Source: Methylocystaceae bacterium (GTDB taxonomy: Bacteria; Pseudomonadota; Alphaproteobacteria; Rhodospirillales; Terasakiellaceae). Taken from it: 46,993 nucleotides of DNA. The position numbers were made by a program, and so were the translations under genes. Below, piece by piece: positions 14,195 to 29,849 of the stretch. Each line of letters opens with the position of its first letter. Position 1 is the stretch's first letter. A model generated the notes under the pieces. That model was not told the DNA's origin, ran no database searches, and worked only from the letters and a program-made list of their open reading frames with translations. The stretch is taken from assembly GCA_013373265.1 (NCBI GenBank), contig JABXIC010000002.1, positions 1-46,993 of the forward strand, written 5' to 3'.

Positions 14195-14271
14195 GGCCCG
14201 TATGTTTATCATTTGGCAAGAAACGTCACTTTGTGACTCGAATCATTAATGAGAAGATAGTAGCTCCTAGC

Positions 14272-15270
14272 ATGCAAAATAACTTGCGACTTTCTATTGT
14301 TGTACCAACCTATAATCGTGCCGAACATCTTGATTTTTTTTTAAAAACTCATATCCCTGTGGTGCGGAAATATAATATTCAGATTTGTATTTCTGACAAT
14401 GCGTCAACAGATCATACCTCTGATGTGATCCAGAAATGGACCAAAATTTACCCCCATATTAAATATTCAACTCAAGTTGAAACAATTCATGTTGATGGAA
14501 ATGTTCAAGCGGCATTACAACTCTCTGAAACAGAATATACATGGCTGATGGGTGATTCATATGAAATCCCCGCATTCTCGTTAGATATTCTTATGAGTAG
14601 CTTGCCGGATGGTGATGACTATTATGATTTTATTGTGCTGAATTTAGTAGGTCGGTTAAAAGAAATTGAAGAGAGAATTTATACTGATCACAATGAGGTG
14701 TTAAAAGATATTGGGTGGATGATGACTTGTATAAGTTGTTCTATATATCACAAAAGATCTATCCAAAAACTGGCATTTGGTAAGTATAAAGAGACTGAAT
14801 TTGGTCATTTGGGAATGATTCTTGATTACTTATCTTCTGAAAAATTTAAACTCTTGTGGGCGCAAAAAGTAGCGGTTGTTACTTTGAAAACACCTGTGCG
14901 GAAAGCGGGGTGGGGGCCTTATTTCTTATCAAATATATTTGTTAAGTGGCCTCAATTGATTGACTGTTTACCCGACTCTTACACAGCTGAGAGCAAAAAA
15001 AAACTCCTTCGTTCATTTCCGGTTAAAGCTAAATTACTTGGTTGGAGAAATATTTTAGCGGTACGTTCTCAGGGAGTTTTAAATAGAGAACAGTATGACC
15101 AGTATAAAAACTGTTTTGACAGAGTTGCCCCAAGTTATTTTAGATATTATGCGTTTTTGTTAACTTATATACCGCAAGACATATGCCGTTTTGCTGTTTT
15201 GATTATTGAATGGTGTCGGCGGAAGAGCTTTCAACTGAAGAAACGCATTCATCCTAATTCAATAATTTAA
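14272..15270 (+). CDS. Family 2 glycosyltransferase
   Basis: GT-A fold glycosyltransferase. The N-terminus has the family signature RLSIVVPTYNRAEHL, then CISDNASTDHTSDVI and the DxD-like region near LMGDSYEI, where the canonical DDD is reduced to GDS. The C-terminal half has no recognised domain; the final 40 residues are aromatic then basic (YYAFLLTYIPQDICRFAVLI, then KKRIHPNSII) and may contact the membrane. The start is uncertain: the ATG at 14272 fits family N-termini, and a GTG at 14233 in the same frame would add 13 residues. It is the last gene of the plus-strand arm and converges with the Nudix gene, 36 bases away. Base use is AT-rich like the opposing array. Sugar and acceptor are unknown. 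Confidence 0.8.
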   Translation: MQNNLRLSIVVPTYNRAEHLDFFLKTHIPVVRKYNIQICISDNASTDHTSDVIQKWTKIYPHIKYSTQVETIHVDGNVQAALQLSETEYTWLMGDSYEIPAFSLDILMSSLPDGDDYYDFIVLNLVGRLKEIEERIYTDHNEVLKDIGWMMTCISCSIYHKRSIQKLAFGKYKETEFGHLGMILDYLSSEKFKLLWAQKVAVVTLKTPVRKAGWGPYFLSNIFVKWPQLIDCLPDSYTAESKKKLLRSFPVKAKLLGWRNILAVRSQGVLNREQYDQYKNCFDRVAPSYFRYYAFLLTYIPQDICRFAVLIIEWCRRKSFQLKKRIHPNSII

Positions 15271-15306: not shown

Positions 15307-15825
15307 TCAGGACCTGGGCGCCTTGAAAAGGTCACTATAAATTTCTTTTTGGACATCTAAAAAATCATCTGGCATCTGGCTATGCCATGCCCATTGATCG
15401 TTTTGTGGGTGTTCTGGGTTGAATTTATTTTGACTATCAAGTTCAGATGTAAGTTTGCAGTTAAAGAGAAGTGAAATAAAGTGTCCTCTGGTATTACGTG
15501 TTTCGTTGATGGTAGAGCTGATCATAAGAGGGGTATTATGATGAGTCAGTGTTGCATTTAGTTCTTTCTTCGCAACAGCGTGGATGCGTGTCTCAAATTT
15601 TTCTTTGAACCGCACTATACCGCCTGGAATATGCCAGCCTGAGCCATAAAATTGATCAGAACGCCAAGTCAGTAAAATGTTGTCTTCATCATTTTTAATG
15701 AGAAGGTCAACATTCACAAGTGGTGTTAATTCGCTAACTAGTAAAAATATATCTTCTTTTAATCCTAGGTTAGGGCTTATTGCTTGGCCTTTAATTGTTG
15801 TTATCGCTTCATTTAAGTTAGGCAT
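15307..15825 (-). CDS. Nudix hydrolase, GDP-mannose mannosyl hydrolase-like
   Basis: Nudix-fold protein of about 172 residues. The region VDLLIKNDEDNILLTWRSDQ, then GSGWHIPGGIVRFKEKFE and KKELNATL, follows the GDP-mannose mannosyl hydrolase (Gmm) pattern, in which the RE..EE part of the usual Nudix box is altered; here too it is AV..KE. Such enzymes cleave GDP-sugars and are common at the edges of surface-sugar clusters. The ATG at 15825 overlaps the end of the radical SAM gene by 8 bases; a longer frame from 15876 overlaps it by 59 bases and is less likely. It is the last gene of the minus-strand array. No GDP-sugar synthesis genes are in the window, so its true substrate is open. Confidence 0.8.
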   Translation of the reverse strand: MPNLNEAITTIKGQAISPNLGLKEDIFLLVSELTPLVNVDLLIKNDEDNILLTWRSDQFYGSGWHIPGGIVRFKEKFETRIHAVAKKELNATLTHHNTPLMISSTINETRNTRGHFISLLFNCKLTSELDSQNKFNPEHPQNDQWAWHSQMPDDFLDVQKEIYSDLFKAPRS

Positions 15826-17524
15826 AATGTCGTTCCAATTGAGGGAGTTCTCTTGCACGGATAACAGAGTTTTCATCGTGAGGTGTTAAGTTAAAACGAT
15901 CAAAGTGTTTTCTCCAAACAGGGTCGTTTTCATATGATGCAATTGCATTAGTTAGATATTGCTTAGCGATGTCGTGATGACCTAATCGTTTATGACAGAT
16001 ACTTGCATAAAAATATGCAATCCCATGATCTTCCTTAGCTCGTATGGCGGTTTCAAAACCGATTAGGGCAAGTGCATATTCTTCAAGTATAAAATCAGTA
16101 TTATGGATGAAATTGACATCTAAATTGATATCATAGGTAATCATTTGAATGTATTGAGCGCTGAAGTCTTCAGTTTCAACGACGGCCTTTCTAAAATCAC
16201 ATCCGATATCTGCAGAGTTGATGTAGTTTTTTTCAATACAGATATCATGCATTTCGGCCCCAACAAGAGGCGTAGCAACTGAAAGAATTTTCCAGTTTGC
16301 GTTGAGCTTTCTTAAGAATAGACGTGTATCTTCGATGTCATCCTTTGTTTCACCGGGCATCCCAATTAAAATGTTAACGTTGGTATAGATATCGAGGTCT
16401 CGACAATCATTTGCAACGCGCTCAGCAATTTCGAGCTTTAAAGGTTTACGCATGATTTCTTTAAGGACGCGAGCACTGCCAGATTCAACAGGTAAAACTA
16501 ATTGATCAGCCCCTGCATTCTTGAATGCAATTAACATATCTCTGTCTAATGAAAACAAAGTTAGACCATTTTGGAAAACGGCTTTGACTTGAAGTTCTGA
16601 AACGTAATTTGCAATGGCTTTAGCTCTTGTCGTATCAGCCATAAAATGATCATCTTGGAATACGAAAATTTTTGCATCATATGTATCTTTTAAGCGTTTT
16701 AAATCCTCGCGCACACGTTCCATACTATAATAGCGCATGGTGCGGCCATGTACCTTATGAGAGGCACAAAAAGTACATCTGAAAGGGCACCCCCTGGAAG
16801 TCATAATATGAAAATTATCAATTTTATCTTTGATTGACCCATAGGCCATGATGGCAGGGTTTGCACCATACTTTTCCATTTTGCACATGTCATAATCATA
16901 AAATGGAATGACGTCTAAATCTTCAATGAAGTCATGAGAGAACATGTATTTTTCATCAATTTTCTTTTGGGTGATCCAACTTGGATGAGAATTAATAAGT
17001 TCTTCATGGTCATCAGCATCAATTAAAGCTGTAAAGGGAAGCTCTCCTTCGCCATAACATAATGCATCAAATGCACTGGATGCTTTGAATAAATGTTCAT
17101 ACATGCTTGTTGGAACACTTCCTCCCGCAAGAATTAAAGAGTCGGGGAAGTATTTTCTACAACTGGCTGCGATATCTAAAATATTGAAATATGAAGAAGA
17201 AAAAAGTGCTGAAAGCGCAATGATGTCGGGTTTTATATGCAGGTTATTTTGGAAGAAGTCTGCATAATATTCAGTTGGAGTTGCGAAATCATATGTGTCG
17301 ATTTCGTTTAACTCGATGTTGAAATCGATTAAGTGTGTTTCAATATTTTTTTTGCAATATTTTTTCATATAGGCACTTAAGGAGAGTGCACCTAAAGGCA
17401 TGTCGGTGACAAGACTGCCATAAAATTTGCCGTCTTTTTTTCTTATCTGTTTTGCATTTGTTAATGGGTTTAAAAAATCTTCAAATGAGAGATGGGGGGG
17501 AATAATAAATAATATTTTTGTCAT
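15818..17524 (-). CDS. B12-binding-type radical SAM protein with C-terminal TPR-like tail
   Basis: Domains in order: N-terminal Rossmann-like cobalamin-binding-type domain (about 1-190, starting KILFIIPPHL and including ALSALFSSSYFNI and LILAGGSVPTSMYEH with CYGEGELPF); a radical SAM barrel with the cluster motif CPFRCTFC (about 245-252) followed by VFQDDHFM and LPVESGSARVLKEIMRKPL; and a C-terminal helical region (about 470-555) resembling a TPR pair (AYFYASICHKRLGHHDIAKQ). As usual in this class, no DxHxxG cobalamin-ligating motif is seen. Relatives methylate unreactive carbons or catalyse other radical steps; the substrate cannot be told here. It follows the FkbM gene after 148 bases and overlaps the Nudix gene by 8 bases. 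A sugar- or lipid-modifying role is inferred from context. Confidence 0.82.
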   Translation of the reverse strand: MTKILFIIPPHLSFEDFLNPLTNAKQIRKKDGKFYGSLVTDMPLGALSLSAYMKKYCKKNIETHLIDFNIELNEIDTYDFATPTEYYADFFQNNLHIKPDIIALSALFSSSYFNILDIAASCRKYFPDSLILAGGSVPTSMYEHLFKASSAFDALCYGEGELPFTALIDADDHEELINSHPSWITQKKIDEKYMFSHDFIEDLDVIPFYDYDMCKMEKYGANPAIMAYGSIKDKIDNFHIMTSRGCPFRCTFCASHKVHGRTMRYYSMERVREDLKRLKDTYDAKIFVFQDDHFMADTTRAKAIANYVSELQVKAVFQNGLTLFSLDRDMLIAFKNAGADQLVLPVESGSARVLKEIMRKPLKLEIAERVANDCRDLDIYTNVNILIGMPGETKDDIEDTRLFLRKLNANWKILSVATPLVGAEMHDICIEKNYINSADIGCDFRKAVVETEDFSAQYIQMITYDINLDVNFIHNTDFILEEYALALIGFETAIRAKEDHGIAYFYASICHKRLGHHDIAKQYLTNAIASYENDPVWRKHFDRFNLTPHDENSVIRARELPQLERHYA

Positions 17525-17672
17525 TTCAGATCCTTTACTGATATCGGGTATTTCGACGATTATATTTCTAGAAACAATATTTTAATTAGCAAAAGTCTTC
17601 TCGAATTTTCTGTAAAGCTGAGTGTTTCTTTATAAAATATGGTGCGTCAAAATGGATTTACAGTTTTTCATT

Positions 17673-18596
17673 TTATTTTGAGTGAATTGAAATGATTTTT
17701 TGGTGCTTTTCTTTATGCAAAAAGAAATAATTTGTAGCTTCGGTTTCATCCGTAATGTTTTGAAACTCTGTAAAAAGGCCATTTTCATAAGCAAAACATC
17801 TGTAGTCAATAGAAGTTAAAAGCTGAATAATATCATTTGGGTGATAACTAAATTTGGCAGACCATTTACGAAGCATTTCTGTAAAAATGAAGGGTGTATC
17901 TCTTTCTATCGTCTTCATTGCGCCTTGAAAAACAAGAAGTTCAGAACCTTCTACATCGCATTTAACCATATCGATTACCGCGTTCTTTTCAGTACAGAAA
18001 TTATCAAGCGTTTGTAACTGACATAGGACGGTGTTTGAGTCTTTACGTTCTTGTATATTTTTCATCGATGAACTACCAGTTTCTTTAACATTCCAAAAAA
18101 ATTCTTTTTTTCCATTTTCATTTGAGAGTGCGATATTGTTCAAGATCGCCTTATCACATTGGTTTAATGCAACATGCCGGGATAGAAAATCGAATGTGCG
18201 TGGAATTGGCTCGAATGAATAAACTGTTTTAACATTTTCTAAGATACTGAAATTAAGAGTATACCAACCGATATTTGCACCAATATCAAAGATTGTCTCA
18301 CTTTGTCGTGCCAGTTCGAAAATGAGACCACGTTCAACAGGGTCAAAAGATTTGAAGTTAATGATTTCGATGGGAATGAAACGAGAGTCAAAAGGATCAA
18401 GATAGAGCTTAAGCCCCGTTTCTTTTATAGTCACAAAGATGTTTTCATTATCAATTGTGATAGATGCAATATCTGAATCTTTAATGTAATCCAAGTATTC
18501 AAAAAGAATTTGGTGTTTTTTGTGCATCTTTTCAATGTAGTTGTGTTTGTCTAGCTTTTGTGAGGCATATAATTGATATAATTGATTTAAATTCAT
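17673..18596 (-). CDS. FkbM-family SAM-dependent methyltransferase
   Basis: A 307-residue protein with the FkbM signature: SAM motif I ETIFDIGANIGWYTLNFSIL (about residues 97-116), VYSFEPIPRTFDFLSRHVALN (motif II), then a TLDNFCTEKNAVIDMVKCDVEGSELLVFQGA block (about 195-225) in which VKCDVEGSE is characteristic. FkbM proteins O-methylate hydroxyl groups of sugars and natural products and are common in glycan clusters. The N-terminal 90 residues are helical and unrelated. It lies 29 bases after an SDR gene and 148 bases before the radical SAM gene, in the same direction. It could cap a hydroxyl on the flagellar glycan. Confidence 0.88.
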   Translation of the reverse strand: MNLNQLYQLYASQKLDKHNYIEKMHKKHQILFEYLDYIKDSDIASITIDNENIFVTIKETGLKLYLDPFDSRFIPIEIINFKSFDPVERGLIFELARQSETIFDIGANIGWYTLNFSILENVKTVYSFEPIPRTFDFLSRHVALNQCDKAILNNIALSNENGKKEFFWNVKETGSSSMKNIQERKDSNTVLCQLQTLDNFCTEKNAVIDMVKCDVEGSELLVFQGAMKTIERDTPFIFTEMLRKWSAKFSYHPNDIIQLLTSIDYRCFAYENGLFTEFQNITDETEATNYFFLHKEKHQKIISIHSK

Positions 18597-18625
18597 TGTG
18601 AATATTTACCAGATGAGATGTGAAA

Positions 18626-19675
18626 TTACATACATTCGCAACTTTCAACCACCCTTTTGAAGCCTTCTGCAATCGGGAAGGTGAGTTTCCACCCTAATGC
18701 TTTGATTTTAGAGATGTCGACAGTTGTGCGAGAAAAGTTCATTCTTAGATACTCTTTTGACGGATCACAAGCCATGATGACCTTTAGTTTTCTTTCAGGG
18801 AAAACTGTATAGGTGAGATATTCGGCTAGTTCTTTTATGCTTATTTCATGTTCCGTTGCTACGTTATAGGCTTCACCATCTTTACCATTTAACATAACAG
18901 TAAAAAAGCCCAGTGTAGCATCGGCAATATAGCAAAAGTTTCGAATAGCGGTACCATTACTATATAAGATGATATCCTGTTTTTTCACGATACAAGAGAT
19001 AAAATCTTCAAAAGAGCGTCCACCTTCTAATTCTAGCCCGGGGCCATACGTGATTGCAGGTCTCACAACTCTAATCGGGACCCCCTTTTGGTACATCCAT
19101 GCACTACACAACATCTCGCCCATGCGCTTGCTTTCTAGGTAGCAGGATGAAATATCCATTGAGTCTAAAGAACCGAAACAGTCTTCTTTGATTGGATAGT
19201 CATTTTCATTTACGAAACCGTAAACGCCAGACGTACTAAAATAGAGGAACCCTTCAACATGATTTTTATGAGCGAGGTCTAATAAATTTTTGGTGCCGAT
19301 GACATTTGGCAATATTGTTTCGATAGGGTTTTCTTTAAAGACCTTTGGGGTGGCAAAACTTGCCGCATGAATAATGAAATCGATCTTATCTTCGATATAA
19401 ATGGGATGGCAGACATCCTGTTCGATCAAATGGAGAAGGGGGCTTTTTAAAGCGTGTTTGAACTTCGTTTTTGCTTTATTAAGCGTTCTGACCAAGCCAA
19501 TAATTTTTATGTTGAAGTTTTTATTTTCATTCAGGTAAAGAAGGGTTTCAACCATGTATGAAGGTAAGAAACCCGCAGCACCCGAGACGAGAACAGTCTT
19601 GTTTTTTAAGCGTTCCCACGCTATGGGTTGGTCTGTCATAAATTTCAGGTCTTCGGTGACGATTGAGTTTCTCAT
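18626..19675 (-). CDS. NAD-dependent epimerase/dehydratase (extended SDR)
   Basis: Extended short-chain dehydrogenase. The nucleotide-binding loop is LVSGAAGFLPSYMVETLL, a GxxGFxxS variant in which Pro replaces the third Gly, as in some UDP-glucuronate decarboxylase-like proteins. The catalytic YLESK (YxxxK) follows FSTSGVYG. The later RPAITYGPGLELEGGRSF and YNVATE segments are typical sugar-nucleotide epimerase features. The start is taken as ATG 19675, just after the previous stop; a TTG start at 19696 would overlap the upstream gene by 17 bases. It lies between another SDR (4 bases upstream) and the FkbM gene. It most likely epimerises, reduces or dehydrates a nucleotide sugar; the substrate is not evident. 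Confidence 0.85.
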   Translation of the reverse strand: MRNSIVTEDLKFMTDQPIAWERLKNKTVLVSGAAGFLPSYMVETLLYLNENKNFNIKIIGLVRTLNKAKTKFKHALKSPLLHLIEQDVCHPIYIEDKIDFIIHAASFATPKVFKENPIETILPNVIGTKNLLDLAHKNHVEGFLYFSTSGVYGFVNENDYPIKEDCFGSLDSMDISSCYLESKRMGEMLCSAWMYQKGVPIRVVRPAITYGPGLELEGGRSFEDFISCIVKKQDIILYSNGTAIRNFCYIADATLGFFTVMLNGKDGEAYNVATEHEISIKELAEYLTYTVFPERKLKVIMACDPSKEYLRMNFSRTTVDISKIKALGWKLTFPIAEGFKRVVESCECM

Positions 19676-19679
19676 GTCA

Positions 19680-20615
19680 TTACGCTTTATGATCAAAGTA
19701 GTTGTTTTTGAGCTTCTTGGCGTATTCTAAGTATGCATCTTTTTGGAGAGCGGTTTTATCTAATAAATCGATGTTGGCTTTATAATGGTTATATAAATCT
19801 AAAATTGAGTTTTTATATTCGGAAAATTTGAAGTGTGGTAATTCTGCGCAGAGGCGTTCATTGTTACCGGAATAGTGAACCCCGAGACCTTCGTTTAAGA
19901 CATGGATCGGACTTTGATAATCGCTTATTTTGTTAATAATATTGACGATGGTAATGAGGTCGATCGATTTTGTTGGTGTGACGTTATAAGAAGAATATTT
20001 TGTTTTGTTCTGTGCAAAAAATTTCACGATCTCACAGAAATCATTGATGTAAATATAATCATAACTGACATTTTTATTAATCGTAATGGGCATATGTAAT
20101 AAATTTTTGGCAATAGCGTTCGAAATGAATTTATATCTATGATCTTCATATTTACCGAAAATTCCAAAGATACGTAATGTGATTAAAGACGTGTCTGCAC
20201 TGTTTTCAATGTATTTAGATATCAGATATTTCGAGAAGCTATGGCTGTCATCTGGGATATGGGTATCAAAGAATGTTTCTTGCATTTTTTCATGCCAATA
20301 TAGCCTTGAATATTCAGATCCACTGCCAAAATTTATCAATTTAGTTTGAGTCTTTTTGTGCTTTAAGAGATTGAAAAACATGCGAAGGTTTTTCTCGCAT
20401 ACGTCGGCACAATACTCTGTGCCTTGGCGTAATGTTGTGGCGGAATGTACGATTACATCAATGGGATGGTGTTTCAGGTATTCTTGAACGGCTTGAGAGT
20501 CAGTAAGGTCAAGTTCTTCCAAGTCAGGGCTATAGACATGAAAAAGATCATTCGTAAATGATTCAACAAGATTTTTCCCAACAAAACCGCCAGCACCTGT
20601 AATTAATATATTCAT
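19680..20615 (-). CDS. SDR-type sugar epimerase/reductase with catalytic Tyr replaced by His
   Basis: Extended SDR, 311 residues, beginning MNILITGAGGFVGKNLVESF (GxxGxxG). It is a clear paralog of the SDR at 24866-25735: both have FGKYED/YGKYED, ISNAIAKNL/LSNNICRAL, YIYINDF/FIYVNDF, and the same spacing. Where the paralog has the catalytic YGLSK, this protein has HSFSK: the codon at 20243-20241 is CAT, one base from TAT. The catalytic Lys is kept. It may be inactive, use another acid/base, or be a binding protein. It follows the TPP-enzyme gene by 19 bases, the place where a reductase such as YerF would act in yersiniose synthesis. Family assignment is firm, function is not. Confidence 0.83.
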   Translation of the reverse strand: MNILITGAGGFVGKNLVESFTNDLFHVYSPDLEELDLTDSQAVQEYLKHHPIDVIVHSATTLRQGTEYCADVCEKNLRMFFNLLKHKKTQTKLINFGSGSEYSRLYWHEKMQETFFDTHIPDDSHSFSKYLISKYIENSADTSLITLRIFGIFGKYEDHRYKFISNAIAKNLLHMPITINKNVSYDYIYINDFCEIVKFFAQNKTKYSSYNVTPTKSIDLITIVNIINKISDYQSPIHVLNEGLGVHYSGNNERLCAELPHFKFSEYKNSILDLYNHYKANIDLLDKTALQKDAYLEYAKKLKNNYFDHKA

Positions 20616-20634
20616 TATCGTTTTATACCTGAAA

Positions 20635-22422
20635 TTAATTCAACATATTTTTTTTGAGCTCTTCTTCTGACAAAAAAGGAGCCATATCTTCTAATGAGGG
20701 AGATATGATCGTTCCATCAGGAAGTTGTTTCGAAGAGAGTTTGGGCGCGAAAGGCATCTTTTCATCGACCATAATTTCACAAATAGCCGGACCTTTTTCG
20801 GTCATCGTCCTTTCAATAGCTGGGATCATTTCACTATGTTGAGAACAGCGGACGTAGGGCATATTAAAAGCAAGAGCAATTTTCTCAAAATCAGGGAAGG
20901 TCACGCCTGACATTGGGCTTGCTCCCACTTCATTTCCATTGAAAAAGTTGTGGTGGGTTTGGTTGATGGAAGAATAACCCTGATTGTTAATGATGAAAAT
21001 TTTAATGGGCATGTTATTACCTGCAATGGTTTGCAATTCTTGTAAATTCATCATAATGCTTCCATCTCCGGCAAGGCAGGCAATAGGTGCTCCTTTGGAC
21101 CCTTTATAAGCACCTATGGCTGCGGGAAGGTCGTATCCCATTGCAGCACTGCCGGAATTGGTCCAAAGTCGTTGTCCTTGCTTTAAATAGGCTGCTTGGA
21201 AACCAACAACACAAGCCGAACCATTTGCCGTTACTACGATTTGGTCATTGGGCAGTTGTTTAAAGAGTGTATCAATAAAGCAGTAGAGATTGATTTTGGG
21301 ATTAGCCCAGTATTCATCCAAAGTCACAGGATAGTTTTTCTGACGTTCTTTACACCAAGCCATCCAATCGTCATGTGATTTTTCGGGTGCGTTATAAGTG
21401 TGTTCGTTTAATTTAACGAGTAAGTCGGCTAAATCTGCATGAATGCAGATTTCTGCTTTGATGCTTGGTTTTTGCATTTCAACGTCATCTATATCTATCC
21501 AGATTTTATCTGCTTTAGAGGCAAAGGAGGCCCAGTTGTAACTGACCTGACGGATGTTTAAGCGGCTTCCTAAAATAATGAGGAGGTCGGCATTTTGCAC
21601 GACAAAGTTACCTGCACGATCACCAACGGTTCCCGGTCGCCCGACATAATTAGGGTGATCATTCCACACAGCGTCATGGGCATTCCATCCCGTTACAACC
21701 GGTATTTTTACTTTGTTTAAGAATTGTAAAAACTGGTCATGTTGTCCACTTAAACGGACACCGGCTCCCGCAAAAACAACGGGGCGTTTCGCTTTTGCGA
21801 TCTGATCTAAAATGGTTTGGGCTGCATGATTTAAATCTGTTTTCTTCCATGTTTGAGGCAGTTCGGATGGATCAAACTTTTCCAGTTCATCTGGGTTGAT
21901 TTGTGCGGCTTGAATGTCTATGGGAATATCAATCCAACAGGGGCCGGGTCGCCCTGAAATGGCGAGGTGAAATGCTTTCTCCAGATGGTAGCGAATGGAG
22001 TTCGGGTCTGTAATCATTACGCTATACTTTGTAATGGAGGAGACCATTTTAATGATTTCGATCTCTTGGTCACCATATTGACGCAGATTCAGACCCGTGC
22101 TTTGAACAGTTGTCTCATATTTAACCTGCCCTGAAATGACAAGCATCCCAAGTGAGTCTGTCCAGGCGCCATGGATACCTGTTAGAGTGTTGGTTCCTCC
22201 CGGTCCGGTCGTTACATTGACGATGGCAGGACGGTTGGTTAGACGATAGTATGATTCAGCAGCGATTGCACAGGCTTGTTCATGATGATTAAATATACAA
22301 TTCAGGTTCGGATGATTGCCAAGAGATTGATTTAGGTGCATCGCCCCGCCACCTGTTATCATAAAGACCTGTTCAATACCCAGTTCAAAGATTTTTTGTG
22401 CGACATAATCAGAAAGTTTCAT
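20635..22422 (-). CDS. Thiamine-diphosphate-dependent enzyme, acetolactate-synthase-like (YerE-type candidate)
   Basis: A 595-residue enzyme with the three-domain layout of acetohydroxyacid synthases: an N-terminal PYR domain with the activating Glu in FNHHEQACAIAAESYYR (Glu near residue 48), a central domain (about 190-330), and a C-terminal PP domain with the TPP motif LAGDGSIMMNLQELQTI ending in the INNQGY stretch. It is unlikely to be amino-acid biosynthetic, because no small subunit follows and it sits among nucleotide-sugar genes. With rfbF, rfbG and rfbH in the same array, YerE is the best analogue: it adds a two-carbon unit from pyruvate to C4 of CDP-4-keto-3,6-dideoxyglucose. It overlaps the C-methyltransferase by 4 bases (ATGA) and is followed by an SDR. 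Enzyme class is firm, substrate inferred. Confidence 0.82.
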   Translation of the reverse strand: MKLSDYVAQKIFELGIEQVFMITGGGAMHLNQSLGNHPNLNCIFNHHEQACAIAAESYYRLTNRPAIVNVTTGPGGTNTLTGIHGAWTDSLGMLVISGQVKYETTVQSTGLNLRQYGDQEIEIIKMVSSITKYSVMITDPNSIRYHLEKAFHLAISGRPGPCWIDIPIDIQAAQINPDELEKFDPSELPQTWKKTDLNHAAQTILDQIAKAKRPVVFAGAGVRLSGQHDQFLQFLNKVKIPVVTGWNAHDAVWNDHPNYVGRPGTVGDRAGNFVVQNADLLIILGSRLNIRQVSYNWASFASKADKIWIDIDDVEMQKPSIKAEICIHADLADLLVKLNEHTYNAPEKSHDDWMAWCKERQKNYPVTLDEYWANPKINLYCFIDTLFKQLPNDQIVVTANGSACVVGFQAAYLKQGQRLWTNSGSAAMGYDLPAAIGAYKGSKGAPIACLAGDGSIMMNLQELQTIAGNNMPIKIFIINNQGYSSINQTHHNFFNGNEVGASPMSGVTFPDFEKIALAFNMPYVRCSQHSEMIPAIERTMTEKGPAICEIMVDEKMPFAPKLSSKQLPDGTIISPSLEDMAPFLSEEELKKNMLN

Positions 22423-23573
22423 TGGTTTGACTCCGCTGCAATCAAGTGATTACCTTTAAGAAGGTAAGCGTCAATATGTCGATCAAAAGCTTGAACGGTT
22501 TTAAGGACTTCCTCAGGATAGATACCAGGAACCATGATGATAACAGCATGGACATCAGAGTGTTCTAATTCCTGAGGGGAGACGATTTTACTGAACATCA
22601 CAGGGCTGTATTTGCCTTGCTTGAAGTCCGCGGAATCAACAATAAATTCAATTTTGTTAATTTGACTGATCGATAGGAGGGCAAGTGTGCGATGCCCGGC
22701 GCCCCAGACAGCAATTTTTTTACCTTGGTCCACATATTGATCAACAAGTTTATTCAGGTTGATTTTCAGTTCGTTTATTTCAGTTATGTAATGGGAAATG
22801 TCTAGAATTTTACGCTTTTTGACAACGGCAAGGATGTCATTATCATTGTTGATTAATGTGCAGTTTAACACATCAAAACCATTGCTTTCAAAGGCAAGAG
22901 TGAGTGTTTTTTGCGTAAAATAGACGAGATGATCAGCAACAAATTCATACAGGCATTTGGACGCCAGTAAATATTCTAAATTCGGAACAGTGACATAGCC
23001 AATGGCATTATCTGTTGTGACTCGATCAATGGCTTCAATAAAGCTTTTGGGGTTGGGTTGATGTTCAAGATAATTAAAAGAGAAAAAAACATCCGCTTTC
23101 GTTTTTGGCTTGTAATCATTGATGTAGTCACAGATGATTTTTCGGCCTTTTTTTTGCCCCACAGCAACAGAAGCAGGTGAAAATTCCAAACCGATAGGGG
23201 TGAGACCTGCTTCTGATACAACATCTAGCATGTCTCCTTTCGCGCAACCGATTTCTAGCGCGGTTTTACCTTCCAACTGATACGCCTGAACGAAGTCTAT
23301 CATTTCTTTAAGGCGTGCTTGTTTGGCATGGGGGGATAAAGAGGCAGCGGTAATAACTTCTTTATAATAAGGAACGGGTTCACCTCTAAGTTGGACTAAT
23401 CCACATGAACGACATTGGTAGACATCCAGTACGATTCCAGTGTCAGAGGAGAACTCTTTGGGTTCTGGATAAAATTGCGCGGCTTTGGGGAATGGTTGCA
23501 TGCTGATGATGGGCTTATCCTTAATGGAGGCAGCACATAGCCTACAGGAATTGAGAGTATTTTTTTTTGTCAT
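22419..23573 (-). CDS. Nucleotide-sugar C-methyltransferase (zinc-ribbon, SAM domain, C-terminal Rossmann domain)
   Basis: A 384-residue protein with the three-part layout of sugar C-methyltransferases such as TylC3: an N-terminal zinc-binding region with CRLC (residues 10-13) and CRSC (near 54-57); a class I SAM domain with GKTALEIGCAKGDMLDVV; and a C-terminal domain (about 275-384) with KIAVWGAGHRTLALLSI and FIVDSADFKQGKYSP. Such enzymes methylate C3 (or C5) of 4-keto-6-deoxy nucleotide sugars, producing tertiary branched sugars. The RfbG product in this array would be a suitable type of substrate. It lies 3 bases after a radical SAM gene and overlaps the TPP-enzyme gene by 4 bases. Family is well supported; the position of methylation is inferred. 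Confidence 0.87.
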   Translation of the reverse strand: MTKKNTLNSCRLCAASIKDKPIISMQPFPKAAQFYPEPKEFSSDTGIVLDVYQCRSCGLVQLRGEPVPYYKEVITAASLSPHAKQARLKEMIDFVQAYQLEGKTALEIGCAKGDMLDVVSEAGLTPIGLEFSPASVAVGQKKGRKIICDYINDYKPKTKADVFFSFNYLEHQPNPKSFIEAIDRVTTDNAIGYVTVPNLEYLLASKCLYEFVADHLVYFTQKTLTLAFESNGFDVLNCTLINNDNDILAVVKKRKILDISHYITEINELKINLNKLVDQYVDQGKKIAVWGAGHRTLALLSISQINKIEFIVDSADFKQGKYSPVMFSKIVSPQELEHSDVHAVIIMVPGIYPEEVLKTVQAFDRHIDAYLLKGNHLIAAESNQ

Positions 23574-23576
23574 AAT

Positions 23577-24860
23577 CTAATTTTTAATATCCTTGCTGAC
23601 TTTTGTCGCGGCAACTTTTTTCCAACCAGATTGATTGAAGCCCATATTGTAGGCTGGTAATCCATAATGCATGCATTCAGCACAAATGGATGCTTTGTCC
23701 TTTTCTCGTTTGATGTCTGAGAGGTCGCTCTTCAAGTAATCTTTAGCGACAATGGTATCTGCTTTGTAAAAAGTCGTACAGCAGACAGGAACGCTCAGAT
23801 CCCAATTGATATTTGTTTGGTTTTCTTTAAATGGACATGTTGAGGATCTGAAATCTTTTGTGACTTCGATACCTTCATCAATATCAACCAGTAGAATTTT
23901 TTGCAGTTCCTCAGTTTGGGGGTCGATGATGCCATTGCAGTGATCAAGACATCTTTCCAGCGGCATGATGAGTGAATATGTTGCAGAAAGAGAGAAACCT
24001 AATTCGTCGCAAAGCTCTTGCATTTTTTGTAAATTTTTCTGATTGTTGTTTGTATAAAGATGGTAATTCACGTCAACGAATGTGTTAGACTCATATTTCT
24101 CTATATAATATTTGAGGCGATAGAGGTTCGATTTGACGAGATTGATATCGCCGCCTGTATGGGTTTCATTATAAGTTTCAGGATAAAACCCAGATAGGGA
24201 CACTTTAAAAAATTCGGGTGAGGCCTGAATAACCCTTTTGAGTTGGTCATCAGATTTTATTGATAAGTTACTTGATATCGCTGCCGCAATACCATTTTTA
24301 TGAAGATGCTTGATGATGTCTGGTAATTTAGGATGGAGGAGTGGTTCTCCCCAGCTATAAAGACTGACATGAGTGAGGACTTCAACTTCGCTTTTGATCT
24401 TTTCAATAACACGCGTGAAGTCTTCAAAAGCCATCATGCCTCGTGGGGGCTTTGCTCCAGTAATGCCATGCGCGCAGGTTGGACATTCCAGATTACATGT
24501 GCCGACCACATCAATTGTATAAAATGAGTCACAATAATCAGAATAAAGCATATAGTCATTTTTTGAAAAGTTCATTTTTGTCAAAGACTGAATGATCTCT
24601 TCTTCTTTGATCGAGACAGCAACAACAATCAGTAAATTTGTGTTTTCTTGTTGTTGTTTTTTAAGGCGATCAGGATGGTAAACGGGTATAGAGTTTAGGG
24701 TTTTGTTTGTAAAAGCGGGGTCTGAATCAACAAAGTTAATAACATTCAAATCATTTGCTCTTGAAAAGCGCAGGAAACCCATACCAGTCATTCGGGCTCC
24801 CCAAATAACGATGTCTCTGCCTTGCAATGTTTGAATGAGTTGCTGCTTTGAATGAAGCAT
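23577..24860 (-). CDS. Radical SAM/SPASM protein with N-terminal Rossmann-like domain
   Basis: A 427-residue two-part protein. Residues about 1-105 form a Rossmann-like domain (GRDIVIWGARMTGMGFLRFS, NFVDSDPAFTNKTLNSIPVY) that resembles the C-terminal domain of the neighbouring C-methyltransferase. The radical SAM part starts at about 118 with CNLECPTC, then MMAFEDF and LYSWGEPLLHP. Cysteines near the C-terminus (CPFKENQTN, SVPVCCTTFY, ASICAECMHYG) form a SPASM-like auxiliary iron-sulfur site. SPASM enzymes modify peptides, and some act on sugars or aminoglycosides (dehydrogenation or epimerisation). In this array a carbohydrate substrate is more likely than a peptide, as no precursor peptide gene was seen. 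It is packed 5 bases after an SDR and 3 bases before the C-methyltransferase. Confidence 0.83.
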   Translation of the reverse strand: MLHSKQQLIQTLQGRDIVIWGARMTGMGFLRFSRANDLNVINFVDSDPAFTNKTLNSIPVYHPDRLKKQQQENTNLLIVVAVSIKEEEIIQSLTKMNFSKNDYMLYSDYCDSFYTIDVVGTCNLECPTCAHGITGAKPPRGMMAFEDFTRVIEKIKSEVEVLTHVSLYSWGEPLLHPKLPDIIKHLHKNGIAAAISSNLSIKSDDQLKRVIQASPEFFKVSLSGFYPETYNETHTGGDINLVKSNLYRLKYYIEKYESNTFVDVNYHLYTNNNQKNLQKMQELCDELGFSLSATYSLIMPLERCLDHCNGIIDPQTEELQKILLVDIDEGIEVTKDFRSSTCPFKENQTNINWDLSVPVCCTTFYKADTIVAKDYLKSDLSDIKREKDKASICAECMHYGLPAYNMGFNQSGWKKVAATKVSKDIKN

Positions 24861-24865
24861 AGTGC

Positions 24866-25735
24866 TTATTCAGCCTCTCTTAGTTGAGTACAAATTTGCT
24901 CAATATTTGGATGGTTTTTGTACCAGTCGTAAAGTTCCTGTACAGCGGTTTCCAATTTTGTAAACTCAACGGGACCAAACTCAGATATGAGACGGCTATT
25001 ATCCGCAGAATAATCTGGATTGAGGCCCTCTTGTTTGATTAACACACTTTCGTCTTTGTCATGTGTGTTTGCAATGACCTGAGCAATTTCAGATAATCGG
25101 ATTGGAGAACCCGTACATACGTTATAATTGCGCTGCGCTGTCTCATTATTGATGAACAGCTCAAGAATTTTGAGAAAGTCATTCACATAAATAAAATCAA
25201 AGAACATGTCACGGTTAATGGAAATGCCCATGCCTGCGAGTGCACGACAAATGTTATTGGATAAAAAGCGTCGTGTATAATCTTCATATTTTCCGTAAAT
25301 GCCAAGCACACGCATATTTACAAGGTTGCGAGGTTTACTTTCGATGTCATTTGATATGACAAATTTTGAAAGACCGTATGTATCAGATGGAATATGTTTT
25401 CTGAAATAATCTTCTTTCATCATGGGTTGATAGTTTTTCATATCATATTCAGCGGCGGAACCGATGCTGATAAGTTTTCCAAAATGATCTGAGCAACGTT
25501 CCAAGTTGAAATACATAATAAGGTTTTCATCAAGGGATTTGATGTTGACCGCACTCAATACAACCACATGAGGTGTGGTTTTTTTCATATAGCTTTCGAC
25601 GGCCTGTGTGTCGAGCAGGTTAAGCTCTTGCCGTTTAGGGGAGTATATATCGTAAACATCAGGGGAGAGGTATTCAACGATGTTTCGTCCGATAAAGCCA
25701 TTTGAACCTAAGACTAAGATTTTCTTTTTAGACAT
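24866..25735 (-). CDS. NAD-dependent sugar epimerase/reductase (extended SDR)
   Basis: A 289-residue extended SDR with nucleotide-binding loop LVLGSNGFIGRNIVEYL, SIGSAAEYD, and intact catalytic YGLSK. It resembles small reductases or epimerases such as those ending dTDP- or CDP-sugar pathways, and is paralogous to the protein at 19680-20615, which lost the catalytic Tyr. The start ATG abuts the stop of the upstream radical SAM gene with no spacer (TAAATG), suggesting coupled translation. The two paralogs bracket a block made of a radical SAM, a C-methyltransferase and a TPP enzyme, so they may act on successive intermediates of one branched sugar. Exact substrate unknown. Confidence 0.85.
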   Translation of the reverse strand: MSKKKILVLGSNGFIGRNIVEYLSPDVYDIYSPKRQELNLLDTQAVESYMKKTTPHVVVLSAVNIKSLDENLIMYFNLERCSDHFGKLISIGSAAEYDMKNYQPMMKEDYFRKHIPSDTYGLSKFVISNDIESKPRNLVNMRVLGIYGKYEDYTRRFLSNNICRALAGMGISINRDMFFDFIYVNDFLKILELFINNETAQRNYNVCTGSPIRLSEIAQVIANTHDKDESVLIKQEGLNPDYSADNSRLISEFGPVEFTKLETAVQELYDWYKNHPNIEQICTQLREAE

Positions 25736-26836
25736 TTACTTTTGTATCCATGGGTTGTTTTCAAGTGTCGCATCATCGGGAACGCCCAAGGCTTCAAGAA
25801 CCTGTTCTTTGTGAGGGTCGAGATCTTCATCGACACAAACCATTGGGGCAGAGCAATTGTTGCAAAAATTAATTTCACTTCGCGCATCTTTTAACATGGC
25901 GATACGCAGTTGTTTCAAAGAGTCACCATCCCATATTTCTTTGACGCTTTGTTCATTGACATTGCCGATGACGACTTTTCTTGGCCAATCAAGTGTACAT
26001 GGACTTGTTGTGCCATCACAGTTGAAGTGAAGATACATAAAGGTAAATGGGCAGATGTTTTTATATTTTTTGATTTTTTGATCATACATACCCGTTTCAT
26101 CGACTTCATTTTGTTTGTCGGCCTGTGTTTCAGCCCATTGAGGGACAATTTTTTCTATGTAAATTTCATCGCAGATATTGCCAAAGGTATGGAAGAAATA
26201 TTGGCGTTCCTCCTCACTGAGGACGTGAATAGTATCGTCATTTTGATCAAGTGAATTGGTTCGATCTGCAATTTTAATATAGATTTTACAATCATCGCGC
26301 CGATTATATAAGTCGGTGATGCCTGCAATCATTTGATCCATATCTTGTCGTACGCCAGCAACTTGCATGTATCTTTCAGATGTTAGTCCCTCTAAAGAAA
26401 GATTAATGCGCTGAATGCCTGCGTCAATCAGTGCTCTGTTAAGCTCCGGGGTTAGCTTTGATCCATTAGTGAACAGTTCTATAATTTCTGCGACATCTTT
26501 ATTCCTTGCATAAGAAATCATGGCCGGGAGGTCAGGATTCATTGTCGGTTCACCATGGTTACCGATTTTTATTTTTTTTATTTTTTCATCAAATTTTTCT
26601 AGGTCATCAACGATCTTTTCAAAGGTTTCAATAGACATCATGCCTCTTTTAAGGCCGACTTCTTTCATTGCTTTATTATCGGCTTGAAAGCAAAAACTAC
26701 ATTTGAAATTACACAGGCTGCAGACATCAATATGTACTGAAAATGGTGTACTTAAAGGGACACGGTCTTCAAGAGGAACTTTTTTGGCAGAATAAATTCT
26801 GGGCTGGACGACTGCAGATATTTCATTTTTTTTCAT
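25736..26836 (-). CDS. Radical SAM/SPASM-domain protein
   Basis: A 366-residue radical SAM protein. The cluster motif is CNFKCSFC (Cys42, 46, 49), with MMSIETFEKIV, the GNHGEPTMNPDLP loop and NLSLEGLTSERYMQVAGVR. The C-terminal SPASM region has cysteines in ICPFTFMYLHFNCDGTTSPC, with DWPRKVVIGNVNEQSVKEIW between, and ends FCNNCSAPMVC. This layout is shared with enzymes annotated as surface-polysaccharide-associated radical SAM proteins as well as peptide-maturing ones; no peptide substrate gene is adjacent. It lies 15 bases after the HAD phosphatase gene. It probably performs an oxidation, epimerisation or dehydration on a sugar or its attached acyl group; this is inference from context. Confidence 0.85.
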   Translation of the reverse strand: MKKNEISAVVQPRIYSAKKVPLEDRVPLSTPFSVHIDVCSLCNFKCSFCFQADNKAMKEVGLKRGMMSIETFEKIVDDLEKFDEKIKKIKIGNHGEPTMNPDLPAMISYARNKDVAEIIELFTNGSKLTPELNRALIDAGIQRINLSLEGLTSERYMQVAGVRQDMDQMIAGITDLYNRRDDCKIYIKIADRTNSLDQNDDTIHVLSEEERQYFFHTFGNICDEIYIEKIVPQWAETQADKQNEVDETGMYDQKIKKYKNICPFTFMYLHFNCDGTTSPCTLDWPRKVVIGNVNEQSVKEIWDGDSLKQLRIAMLKDARSEINFCNNCSAPMVCVDEDLDPHKEQVLEALGVPDDATLENNPWIQK

Positions 26837-26851: not shown

Positions 26852-27520
26852 TTATGTATTAGTTTTTAAAGTGTTTACAGAAAAAATATTAAAATCAAGC
26901 AGTTCACTTATATGTGTGATCGATGCATAGATTTGATTGGAAACGATCCCATCATTATAACCAGACTTGAAAAAAATAAATGGTATATTTGTAGCTTGGC
27001 AGGTTCTTTGGTCAACTGTGCTATCACCTACTAAAATTGTGTTTTTCGCAGTCGTTTCAAGTTGTGTTAATGCCGCATTTACGGGTTCAGGGTTGGGTTT
27101 TAGTTTCATTGAAGGCGTTTGAGAAATGACACTGTCAAAGTACGGGATAATGCCTGTGTCTTTCAGGACTTTATTGCATAGGTTTTCTGGTTTGTTTGTA
27201 CATATGCCGAGTTTGAGATTACGTTTTTTTAGCTCGTTCAGCGTGTTTTTGACCATGGGGTAAAGAGAGCTTTCAGGTGTCGTTATATTTTTGTATTTCA
27301 AACGAAACTCATTAATGAGATCTGCCGTACGTTCCTCACAAAAATCAAGCGCGCATTCAATGAGCGCAGGAGCACCGTGACTAATTTTTTCACGAAAGAA
27401 AGATATGTTCAGGGGTGGGTAACCACGTTCTGAACGCATTTGATTTAAAATCAATGCGGTTTCTTGGGCGCTATCAACTAATGTGCCATCTAGATCAAAA
27501 AGTATGGTAGTGATATCCAA
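26852..27520 (-). CDS. HAD-superfamily phosphatase, phosphoglycolate-phosphatase-like
   Basis: A 222-residue HAD hydrolase with all four motifs: FDLDGTLVDSA (motif I, nucleophile Asp10), CTNKPE (motif II Thr), KPNPEP (motif III Lys) and GDSTVDQRTCQAT (motif IV). The helical cap between motifs I and II fits the Gph/PGP subgroup. It would remove phosphate from a small sugar- or acid-phosphate. The gene follows the HpcH/HpaI-like gene by 1 base and precedes a radical SAM gene by 15, so it probably serves the same pathway, perhaps dephosphorylating an aldol product. Confidence 0.88.
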   Translation of the reverse strand: MDITTILFDLDGTLVDSAQETALILNQMRSERGYPPLNISFFREKISHGAPALIECALDFCEERTADLINEFRLKYKNITTPESSLYPMVKNTLNELKKRNLKLGICTNKPENLCNKVLKDTGIIPYFDSVISQTPSMKLKPNPEPVNAALTQLETTAKNTILVGDSTVDQRTCQATNIPFIFFKSGYNDGIVSNQIYASITHISELLDFNIFSVNTLKTNT

Positions 27521-27521
27521 G

Positions 27522-28328
27522 TTAAAGCACCTTTGCCTCTAATTCGTTGCACCGTGTTTGAAGCATTTGAATGCGGCTATCATCTTCGTTGGCGATGTTT
27601 TGGTAATAACTCTGTTTGTTTTGTAACCAAAGAAGTTCAAAGCGCACAGCATCGCATAAACCTTTTTCGATATTTTTTAATGATAATGCATCGGCATCCC
27701 AAACAATTTTGCGCGTTTCAAAACGGGTGAGATGAATGTCGTGAATTTGGCTTAAAGCAGGTAGGGCTTCAATTGAGACACCGCCACCAACAACCAATGT
27801 AAGGTTATGTTCTTTACACTTTTCTGCGATGTGAAAGGAATATTCTTGAACCGCAGGGGTATTGATATCGTCTCGTGACATGTTGTTTGATCCCGTGAAG
27901 TCGACACGTCCAAAAACCACTCCTAAACTTGACTTTTCACTGGCCGCTAATGCTGCGATATCATCCAGCTGATGATAGGCGGTTATGGTTTCGAGGTTAA
28001 ATAAGAATTCCATATCCGTCATTTCTTCAGAGGAGTAGATTTTATTTCGGGCAGCAATATATTTGCTCAGCGCATAAGGCGTTTCAATCATCGGGGCAAT
28101 AATATGTTCAACACCAAATTGTTTGGCTTCGATCAGATCTCGAATAGCTTCACAACCGCCAATTTTCAGGGCAACATCAAGGTCTGCACGGCGGGTAATT
28201 TCTAGCAGGCGCAAAAACTCGTCAATTCGTGTCCCTTCGGCTTCGAATTCAGCTTTGACGCTTACATAGCCGTAATGTTCCTTTCCTCGCTTCAAAATTT
28301 CGAGCATTTCTTTTTCGTATCTATTCAT
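27522..28328 (-). CDS. HpcH/HpaI aldolase/citrate-lyase-like protein
   Basis: A 268-residue protein resembling the TIM-barrel HpcH/HpaI aldolase/citrate lyase superfamily: KIGGCEAIRDLIEAKQFGVE, the IIAPMIETPYALSKYIAARN block with the metal-binding Glu, a second acidic segment MEFLFNLETITAYHQ, and VVFGRVDFTGS. Members cleave or form carbon bonds of 2-oxo acids or acyl-CoA. The C-terminal 35 residues are a helical extension with coiled-coil character. Placed with a HAD phosphatase directly downstream, it suggests a small aldol-phosphate pathway, for example making a hydroxy-acid substituent, but that is inference. It follows rfbH after a 132-base AT-rich gap in which I see no clear promoter or hairpin. 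Confidence 0.75.
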   Translation of the reverse strand: MNRYEKEMLEILKRGKEHYGYVSVKAEFEAEGTRIDEFLRLLEITRRADLDVALKIGGCEAIRDLIEAKQFGVEHIIAPMIETPYALSKYIAARNKIYSSEEMTDMEFLFNLETITAYHQLDDIAALAASEKSSLGVVFGRVDFTGSNNMSRDDINTPAVQEYSFHIAEKCKEHNLTLVVGGGVSIEALPALSQIHDIHLTRFETRKIVWDADALSLKNIEKGLCDAVRFELLWLQNKQSYYQNIANEDDSRIQMLQTRCNELEAKVL

Positions 28329-28460: not shown

Positions 28461-29849
28461 TCAGCTTTCCTTATAATCAATGCCGAGAGTTTCTTTGATT
28501 GTTGAAATTATGTAATCAAGCATATCAGTATGGAGTGAAGGTTGAACCCCGACCCAGAAAGAATTATTCATCACAATATCGGTGTTTTTTAATGAACCGC
28601 TGACACGGAATTTTTGGTTGGACATATAGGGTTGTTTTGTTAGATTGCCGGCGAATAACAAACGTGATCCGATCTTACGTTCATCCAGTTTTTTGATCAT
28701 TTCAACGCGGCTGACAGGGGCATTGTCTTTGAGCGTCAATGGAAAGCCAAACCAAGATGGGTCGGAATTTGGTGTATTTTCAGGAAGAATAAGAAATTCT
28801 TGGCAAGATTTTAAACCAGCTTTTAAATAGTTAAAGTTTCTTTTGCGCAAGCTGATAAATTCTTCTAGGCGTTCCAATTGCGCAAGGCCACAGGCGGCTT
28901 GCATATCTGTGATTTTGAGATTGTACCCAACATGGCTGTAGATATATTTATGATCATAGCCTTCAGGTAAATCACCAAGCTTCCAGCAGAAACGTTTTTG
29001 ACATGTGTTATCTTCGCCTGGTGCGCAAAAACAATCACGGCCCCAATCTCTAAAAGATTCTATAATCGGTTTTAACAGACCATTATTCGTATATACGGCG
29101 CCACCTTCGCCCATTGTAATATGGTGCGCGGGATAAAAACTTAAGGTGCCAATATCTCCAAATGTGCCAACAAGGCGAGGAACGCCTGCTTTAATGGGAT
29201 ATTTGCGATCACGTTTTATGGGTTTTGTTGGAGTGTATGTTGTTCCTAGTGCATCACATGTATCTTCAATCACCCAAAGGTCGTGTGTTTGGGCAATTGT
29301 CATAATTTTGTCTAGGTCAAAAGGATTGCCTAATGTATGAGCAAGCATAATGGCTTTTGTTTTGTCGCTGACGGCGGCTTCAATTAAATGGGGGTCAATG
29401 TTGTATGTCGGGATGTGGACATCTACAAAAACGGGAATAAGGCCATACTGCAAAAGTGGGTTTACACTTGTGGGGAAGCCTGCAGCAACGCAGATGACTT
29501 CATCACCTGGTTTTAAAGCTTTTTCTGTTAATTTGGGCGAGGTTAGGGCGGCTACGGATAATAGGTTGGCAGACGAACCAGAGTTTGTTGTCAGAGCATG
29601 TTTTACAGATAGATAACTGGCCAGTTTTTTTTCAAAAGAAGCATTGAATCGTCCGGTGGTGAGCCAACCATCTAAGGAGGCTTCGACAAGGTGTTGTAGT
29701 TCGTTCACGCCGATCATTTTACCAGAGGGCGCAATGATGGTTTCGCCAGCTTTAAAGGGGGGAATTTGCGCATTTTCTGCTGCATATTCAGCTACAAGCT
29801 GGCTGATTTTTTTCCGAATTTCTTTTTGTTTTTGCGTGTCTTGGTTCAC
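28461..29849 (-). CDS. rfbH: CDP-4-keto-6-deoxyglucose 3-dehydrase (E1), RfbH
   Basis: PMP- and [2Fe-2S]-dependent dehydrase that removes the C3 hydroxyl of CDP-4-keto-6-deoxyglucose. It keeps the diagnostic [16 protein letters not shown], where His replaces the Lys that binds PLP in ordinary aminotransferases, and the iron-sulfur cysteines (DTCDALG, then [11 protein letters not shown]). The order [32 protein letters not shown] and [20 protein letters not shown] is near-identical to Salmonella RfbH. I choose the GTG at 29849, two bases after the rfbG stop; a longer frame from 29915 overlaps rfbG by 65 bases. About 25 residues longer than the Salmonella protein at the N-terminus. No RfbI/AscD-type reductase (E3), which completes the reaction, is in the window. 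Confidence 0.95.

Follow-up and report, generated by a model that had tools for sequence, protein, structure and literature searches.

The closest described relatives of the gene cassette considered here are the YerE-type pathways for the cytidine diphosphate (CDP)-linked branched sugars yersiniose, erwiniose and caryophyllose. The cassette, which includes three radical S-adenosylmethionine (SAM) genes, was found in a Methylocystaceae bacterium (assembly GCA_013373265.1), in the first 46,993 nucleotides of contig JABXIC010000002.1, a stretch referred to below as the window. According to PMC12247030, pyruvate is the donor of the two-carbon unit that YerE attaches to CDP-3,6-dideoxy-4-keto-D-glucose. 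ErwE favors longer hydroxy-2-oxo acids (such as 4-hydroxy-2-oxobutanoate, -pentanoate or -hexanoate), and MMAR_2332 of the caryophyllose pathway has a donor preference similar to that of ErwE. Because the window combines rfbF/G/H with a YerE-like thiamine diphosphate (ThDP)-dependent ligase, an aldolase and a C-methyltransferase, its cassette is read here as a pathway to a CDP-activated C-4-branched deoxysugar of the erwiniose/caryophyllose kind, to which a pair of “twitch” radical SAM enzymes and, optionally, a B12-type enzyme have been added, probably for flagellin glycosylation. This is the reading that we favor, if only by a little.

The window shares with the YerE-type pathways the RfbF/G/H supply, a YerE/JanthE-like ThDP ligase and reductases of the short-chain dehydrogenase/reductase (SDR) type, and its aldolase could supply the 4-hydroxy-2-oxo acid donor preferred by ErwE. 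Unlike the published YerE-like clusters, compared here by their published descriptions, it also encodes two twitch enzymes, an optional B12-type enzyme and a C-methyltransferase; no radical SAM enzyme is named in the passages of PMC12247030 that were consulted. The same source places the known YerE-type products in lipopolysaccharide, whereas the window’s cassette sits in a flagellin-glycan locus. The cassette genes overlap or lie 0–30 bases apart, except for gaps of 148 and 132 bases. In their order leftwards from 31709, they are:

30903..31709, minus strand: RfbF, glucose-1-phosphate cytidylyltransferase (TIGR02623, 462 bits, cut-off 300)
29851..30918, minus strand: RfbG, CDP-glucose 4,6-dehydratase (TIGR02622, 461 bits, cut-off 278)
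28461..29915, minus strand: RfbH, CDP-6-deoxy-4-hexulose 3-dehydrase (NF011936, 726 bits, cut-off 423)
27522..28328, minus strand: HpcH/HpaI-type class II aldolase/lyase (PF03328, E 2e-4, under the Pfam cut-off)
26852..27520, minus strand: HAD phosphatase, phosphoglycolate-phosphatase-like (PF13419)
25736..26836, minus strand: twitch radical SAM protein 1 (the “SPASM” gene), 366 residues, cassette core (PF04055 58.5 bits, PF13186 49.9 bits)
24866..25735, minus strand: SDR3, NAD-dependent epimerase/reductase (PF01370), in 8/8 other loci and always beside the twitch 1 gene
23577..24860, minus strand: twitch radical SAM protein 2 (rSAM2), 427 residues, with an N-terminal Rossmann domain, a radical SAM core and a four-cysteine twitch (PF04055 39.0 bits)
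22419..23573, minus strand: sugar C-methyltransferase with a zinc-binding N-domain, a Methyltransf_23 core and a Methyltransf_14 C-domain (PF13489, PF08484), in 8/8 other loci
20635..22422, minus strand: ThDP-dependent carboligase, YerE/JanthE-like (JanthE 8rph, 407.5 bits), in 8/8 other loci
19680..20615, minus strand: SDR2, NAD-dependent epimerase/reductase (PF01370), in 4/8 other loci
18626..19696, minus strand: SDR1, NAD-dependent epimerase/dehydratase (PF01370), in 4/8 other loci
17673..18596, minus strand: FkbM-family methyltransferase (PF05050, 73 bits), with a homologue in 4/8 other loci
15818..17524, minus strand: radical SAM protein with a B12-binding domain, 568 residues, with a C-terminal TPR-like tail, accessory (PF04055 75 bits, PF02310 45 bits)
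15307..15876, minus strand: Nudix hydrolase (PF00293), with a homologue in 7/8 other cassette loci; its true start is probably downstream of the overlap with 15818–17524

The observations that carry the reading are gene content, synteny, co-variation, motifs and locus position. The protein encoded at 25736–26836 was used to scan 84,980 species genomes, together with a sample of 398 proteobacterial genomes. The large scan returned five close relatives of twitch 1 (62–78% identity), in Pseudoalteromonas neustonica, a gammaproteobacterial single cell, a betaproteobacterial metagenome-assembled genome (MAG), an unplaced MAG and Magnetovibrio blakemorei, and the sample added three more (61–65% identity). 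This makes nine loci including the window, with hosts that span alpha-, beta- and gammaproteobacteria and MAGs. SDR3, the C-methyltransferase, the ThDP enzyme and the aldolase lie beside twitch 1 in all eight of the other loci and twitch 2 is found in seven (47–71% identity); rfbF/G/H accompany the cassette in most of them, RfbH in six of the eight. The HAD phosphatase is exchanged for a different HAD type in four other loci (a NagD-type Pfam match in L010 and similar open reading frames (ORFs) in L032–L034). The spread is patchy: twitch 1 occurs in only one of 196 genomes of the P. neustonica family and, at this level, in none of five congeners. The cassette is best read as a rare, horizontally mobile unit of 13–15 genes.

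The identity matrices of twitch 1, twitch 2, SDR3, the C-methyltransferase, the ThDP enzyme and the B12-type enzyme are intercorrelated (r 0.52–0.87, Mantel p 0.001–0.025), for a sample of just five to nine sequences, uncorrected for shared descent. RfbF and RfbG do not track these tailoring genes (r −0.18 to 0.41, no p under 0.05), and RfbH does so partly. This pattern points to joint inheritance of the tailoring genes, with part of the CDP-sugar supply exchangeable. The sequence-only reading, which had placed the enzymes among nucleotide-sugar genes, was borne out in its link to sugar genes by nine loci in distant bacteria, but it had overlooked the context of rfbF/G/H, the YerE-like ligase, the aldolase and the C-methyltransferase.

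The RfbF, RfbG and RfbH families make CDP-4-keto-3,6-dideoxyglucose; all three genes are present in the window, each over its NCBIfam cut-off, and their product would be the acceptor for the branch. HpcH/HpaI aldolases convert pyruvate and an aldehyde to 4-hydroxy-2-oxo acids. Because ErwE and MMAR_2332 prefer acids of this class, the aldolase is proposed as the donor source, and the simplest assembly would be one in which the aldolase and phosphatase provide the donor, RfbF/G/H provide the acceptor, the ThDP enzyme makes the branch and the remaining enzymes do the tailoring. In this scheme, the aldolase and the HAD phosphatase would together turn pyruvate and a (phospho)aldehyde into a hydroxylated 2-oxo acid. 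The metal-site motifs of the aldolase, IAPM-E and GRVD, are kept in 10/10 homologues. The ThDP enzyme has JanthE (8rph, 407.5 bits) as its best solved relative, followed by acetolactate synthase (227.3 bits), and by sequence is closer to the YerE-like ketone ligases than to acetolactate synthase; its HHEQ and GDGS motifs are kept in full-length homologues. By homology to YerE, ErwE and JanthE, it would decarboxylate the 2-oxo acid and attach what remains of it at the C-4 ketone, so that the deoxysugar becomes branched at C-4.

We infer the tailoring reactions, their order and the acceptor as follows. The SDRs would reduce or epimerize ketones, the C-methyltransferase would methylate a carbon adjoining a ketone and FkbM would probably O-methylate. 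The targets of the twitch enzymes would be unactivated carbons in the sugar or in its branch, where these enzymes would most likely oxidize an alcohol to a ketone or invert a center in the manner of BtrN-type twitch enzymes, and a ketone made in this way could serve the C-methyltransferase and SDR3. The B12-type enzyme would carry out an optional extra step, either C-methylation or dehydration. The finished CDP-sugar would then be transferred to flagellin by the neighboring Maf, TPR/GT41-like or GT2 enzymes.

Several individual loci show further features around these enzymes. In the MAG locus L010 (5462–7281), the ThDP gene is split across two overlapping frames, either by an assembly frameshift or because the gene is broken. 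In the gammaproteobacterial single cell (L008:227–4708), rfbF is directly preceded by an aldolase/SDR fusion, a methylthioadenosine (MTA) phosphorylase, an apt-like ORF and mtnA, the last of which overlaps rfbF by 4 bases. These genes could recycle 5′-deoxyadenosine, the radical SAM by-product, and release acetaldehyde, a possible substrate of the aldolase; in other hosts, mtnA homologues are on other contigs or far off. On a plasmid of Novosphingobium humi (L059:12037–14807), the genes for RfbF, RfbG and the HpcH-like aldolase of the cassette are consecutive and adjoin a polysaccharide export gene. A comparison of the ThDP enzyme with plasmids gave no match at 1e-130.

All three radical SAM genes of the flagellar glycan array were confirmed, at the coordinates and on the strand given above and each with a score above the Pfam curated cut-off. 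The sequence-only reading had called them one B12-type and two SPASM-type enzymes. The B12-type assignment holds, but the other two are not of the SPASM type. Only the protein at 25736–26836, not that at 23577–24860, gives a Pfam SPASM match, and both carry the four cysteines of a twitch, a truncated SPASM domain that binds one auxiliary cluster (PMC9012708). In twitch 1, the auxiliary cysteines C262-X17-C280...C325-X2-C328 are invariant in 12/12 sequences and the last three align with the C-terminal cysteines of BtrN; a fifth cysteine, C334, lacks the rest of the SPASM motif. In twitch 2, C342-X17-C360...C393-X2-C396 are invariant in 8/8 sequences, with C361 as the only addition. The CX3CX2C motif together with the four-cysteine set is likewise invariant (11/11 and 12/12 for twitch 1, 8/8 for twitch 2). 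As judged from these motifs, both proteins have a single-cluster twitch arrangement rather than a full SPASM domain. The top NCBIfam match of both is the tungsten-cofactor maturase model TIGR04317, which was rejected because the scores, 85 and 65 bits, fall far short of its cut-off of 380.

In profile searches, the best solved relative of twitch 1 is BtrN (1.5e-20), followed by MoaA, DesII and others. BtrN catalyzes the two-electron oxidation of an aminocyclitol alcohol (PMC9012708). Twitch enzymes that act on sugars or cyclitols thus resemble those of the window in their CX3CX2C core and four-cysteine auxiliary set. However, BtrN belongs to an antibiotic pathway and has an aminocyclitol substrate, whereas the window’s genes sit with CDP-sugar genes. 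Twitch 2 also differs from BtrN by its extra N-terminal Rossmann domain, which resembles PDB 3nkl, UDP (uridine diphosphate)-D-quinovosamine 4-dehydrogenase (E 3e-8; Z 12.6, root-mean-square deviation 2.8 over 105 residues). The predicted model of twitch 2 has a predicted local distance difference test (pLDDT) score of 77.6, and its first-ranked folds in Foldseek are DesII and BlsE. The closest solved relatives of the three enzymes (BtrN for twitch 1, DesII and BlsE for twitch 2 and AprD4 for the B12-type protein) act on sugars or cyclitols, in support of the branched-sugar pathway.

For the B12-type protein, AprD4 (1.2e-21) is the best solved relative, followed by MgmA and TokK. The window’s protein shares with the diol dehydratase AprD4 and with TokK a B12-binding-like N-domain and a radical SAM core, but it has a C-terminal TPR-like tail and reaches no curated equivalog cut-off, and its CX3CX2C spacing differs from AprD4, in which the aligned stretch is one residue longer. 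It contains the B12-binding Pfam domain, yet its best solved relative is a dehydratase, and both dehydration and methylation are candidate reactions for it on sequence grounds. Homologues occur in five cassette loci (46–79% identity), and none was found at E 1e-40 in the genomes of P. neustonica, G417 or the gammaproteobacterial single cell (SCGC; a partial genome). The cassette does not need the B12-type enzyme, which is an accessory. The three radical SAM enzymes are therefore not a set of equals: the two twitch enzymes form the core.

The density of radical SAM genes had been offered as the novel feature of the locus, but this did not hold up. The genome has 24 radical SAM domains, three of them in the window, and random placement of 24 genes puts at least three within 11 kb somewhere with P = 0.043. 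A second trio, two B12-type and one SPASM-type, lies among sugar genes on contig C127 of the same genome (G000:C127:2811–15154). Density is only marginally unusual because of this P value and the similar trio in another glycan region, and as evidence it was set aside as weak. It is not the novelty either, because two plasmids hold as many radical SAM genes or more. Plasmid pBHWA1 of Brachyspira hyodysenteriae (L039, NC_012226.1) carries seven genes annotated as radical SAM/SPASM alongside rfbF, rfbC, SDR and glycosyltransferase genes; five of the proteins are 30–34% identical to twitch 1, and some pBHWA1 genes correlate with virulence in strain comparisons (PMC4267127). The plasmid of Deltaproteobacteria bacterium Smac51 (L061, CP026658.1) encodes six rSAM2-like proteins (27–32% identity, annotated as hypothetical), in addition to B12-type radical SAM-like and perosamine synthetase genes. 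These radical-SAM-rich glycan plasmids resemble the window in having many twitch-like genes among rfb, SDR and glycosyltransferase genes (about 24–36% identity), but their gene sets differ, and no HpcH, YerE-like ligase or rfbH was seen among the features of pBHWA1. The real signal is conserved synteny, not density.

The flagellar setting of the radical SAM genes was confirmed on both sides of the cassette. Flagellin, FlbT, FlaF, a TPR/GT41-like protein, Maf and then PseB (7382–14194; Pfam and NCBIfam) make up one flank; PseI, PseG and PseF lie on the other, followed by a block that adjoins the pse genes in sister species too. The flanking features are:

7382..15270, plus strand: flagellin, FlbT, FlaF, TPR/GT41-like protein, Maf, PseB and GT2 (Pfam; PseB TIGR03589, 482.6 bits)
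31734..33320, minus strand: acyl-CoA-synthetase-like adenylating enzyme (PF00501)
33253..33498, minus strand: small acyl/peptidyl carrier protein of 81 residues, an ORF found in a gap (PF00550, 20.0 bits, below the cut-off of 20.8)
33508..37839, minus strand: pseI, a Gfo/Idh/MocA gene, pseG (with an extension) and pseF (TIGR03586, TIGR03590, TIGR03584)

The genes at 7382..15270 are likely flagellin and its glycosylation machinery, and the window has the combination of flagellin, a Maf or FlmG-like transferase and nonulosonic-acid genes that marks a flagellin glycosylation locus. The listed start of pseF (37333–38140, minus strand) is too short; the gene is probably intact, with a rare start codon, because the frame is open upstream and includes the usual N-terminal motif. 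In P. neustonica, flagellins, FliS and Maf lie on one side of the cassette and PseI, PseG, PseB and more flagellar genes on the other, and in M. blakemorei the cassette is found together with FlaF, FlbT and a pse block. One congener of the Methylocystaceae bacterium carries RfbF/G/H, a gene of the FkbM family and a B12-type enzyme of 43% identity in the slot beside its flagellar and pse genes, and in a second congener the same slot carries a different gene set (L069–L071 from G341; L072–L073 from G340). This comparison is a picture of a variable flagellin-glycan locus.

The cassette’s sugar might instead be destined for lipopolysaccharide or exopolysaccharide, with the flagellar neighborhood incidental. 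Known YerE-type sugars occur in lipopolysaccharide (PMC12247030), several cassette loci are away from flagellar genes and the aldolase is also present in an export locus. However, in three genomes from two classes the cassette is embedded in flagellar or pseudaminic-acid loci that include Maf or flagellin-assembly genes, and sister species differ in the glycan genes that they carry at the same slot. Nor was a gene for a polysaccharide polymerase or for export seen in the window’s cassette, and this destination is considered unlikely. Modification of flagellin or another protein by the radical SAM enzymes themselves, through C-methylation or cross-linking, with the placement among sugar genes a coincidence, is very unlikely. 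Protein methylation is a reaction open to B12-type enzymes, MgmA ranks second among the solved relatives of the one found here and the peptide-acting anSME and SuiB tie with sugar-acting enzymes in the fold comparison of twitch 2. Against this, no NCBIfam model for a maturase of ribosomally synthesized and post-translationally modified peptides reached its cut-off, all matches being far below, and in nine loci the cassette is accompanied by a C-branching ThDP ligase and CDP-sugar genes, next to neighbor proteins that differ (flagellin, an ALTTAQ-repeat protein or none in view). The sequence-only reading had seen no peptide precursor nearby, and the gap ORFs agree: none in the cassette gaps is precursor-like, and the only real small gene is that of the 81-residue carrier protein.

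This carrier protein, which was absent from an ORF list with a 100-residue limit, sits between the acyl-CoA-synthetase-like gene and pseI, and together the two genes (31734–33498) adjoin rfbF. They raise the possibility that the radical SAM enzymes act on the carrier to build an unusual acyl substituent, a group also suggested in the sequence-only reading, rather than modify a sugar. However, the adenylating gene forms part of the pse block in M. blakemorei and in sister species, whether or not twitch genes are present: its homologue adjoins PseI in M. blakemorei, G341 and G340 and is near PseI in P. neustonica, and no adenylating gene was seen in the non-flagellar cassette loci. It is probably part of the pseudaminic-acid branch, and with the carrier protein it may serve to attach an acyl or amino-acyl group to pseudaminic acid. 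An acyl substituent is possible but better assigned to these two genes, and its construction by the radical SAM enzymes is most unlikely.

Several observations weigh against the branched flagellin sugar. No flagellar gene is visible in six of the nine loci, three of which lie on short contigs, and two of the six have an ALTTAQ-repeat protein in place of flagellar genes. Twitch 2 was not seen in one of the other loci, a truncated 16.8 kb contig. The predicted model of twitch 1 is poor (pLDDT 58) and was used for the common core only, and in a second structural comparison of twitch 2, anSME and SuiB tied with DesII and BlsE, because of which its fold leaves the substrate undecided. The proposed comparison of the SPASM types with sugar-acting family members favored the latter by sequence, through BtrN for twitch 1, while the fold of twitch 2 fits sugar- and peptide-acting enzymes equally well. 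The match of the aldolase to PF03328 is below the Pfam cut-off, and no ThDP homologue was found on the N. humi plasmid, in a search without a positive control there. Because this locus has the aldolase with rfbF–rfbG and no ThDP enzyme was found, the product of the aldolase need not feed the ThDP enzyme, and it may act otherwise in CDP-sugar pathways.

The ALTTAQ-repeat proteins are encoded near the cassette in two non-flagellar loci (L009:82–1449 and L048:2700–4514), together with GT41- or GT61-type glycosyltransferases, and may be another kind of glycosylated surface protein. A broader proposal, put forward tentatively and with more doubt than confidence, is that the cassette’s product is a flagellin sugar of a class not described before, a long- or C-branched deoxysugar in CDP-activated form whose carbon skeleton or oxidation pattern is set by the two twitch enzymes; the mobile cassette would supply it to varied surface-protein acceptors (flagellin and ALTTAQ-repeat proteins).

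Radical SAM enzymes and flagellin glycosylation are mentioned together only incidentally in the open-access literature, which was the scope of the search, as opposed to subscription journals. The claim that such a density is not a known part of flagellin glycosylation has to be narrowed, because radical-SAM-rich glycan loci do exist. As far as the open-access literature shows, what has gone unreported is the presence of radical SAM enzymes in flagellin glycosylation, coupled here to YerE-type branching.

To our knowledge, radical SAM sugar chemistry is known mainly from antibiotic pathways. If the branched-sugar pathway proposed here is correct, it would take this chemistry into the making of nucleotide sugars for a surface organelle of bacteria, and YerE-type C-branching, until now associated with lipopolysaccharide, would enter protein glycosylation. 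The question lends itself to direct testing, because the conserved gene set offers a predicted substrate class for each enzyme and natural hosts with and without the B12-type enzyme.

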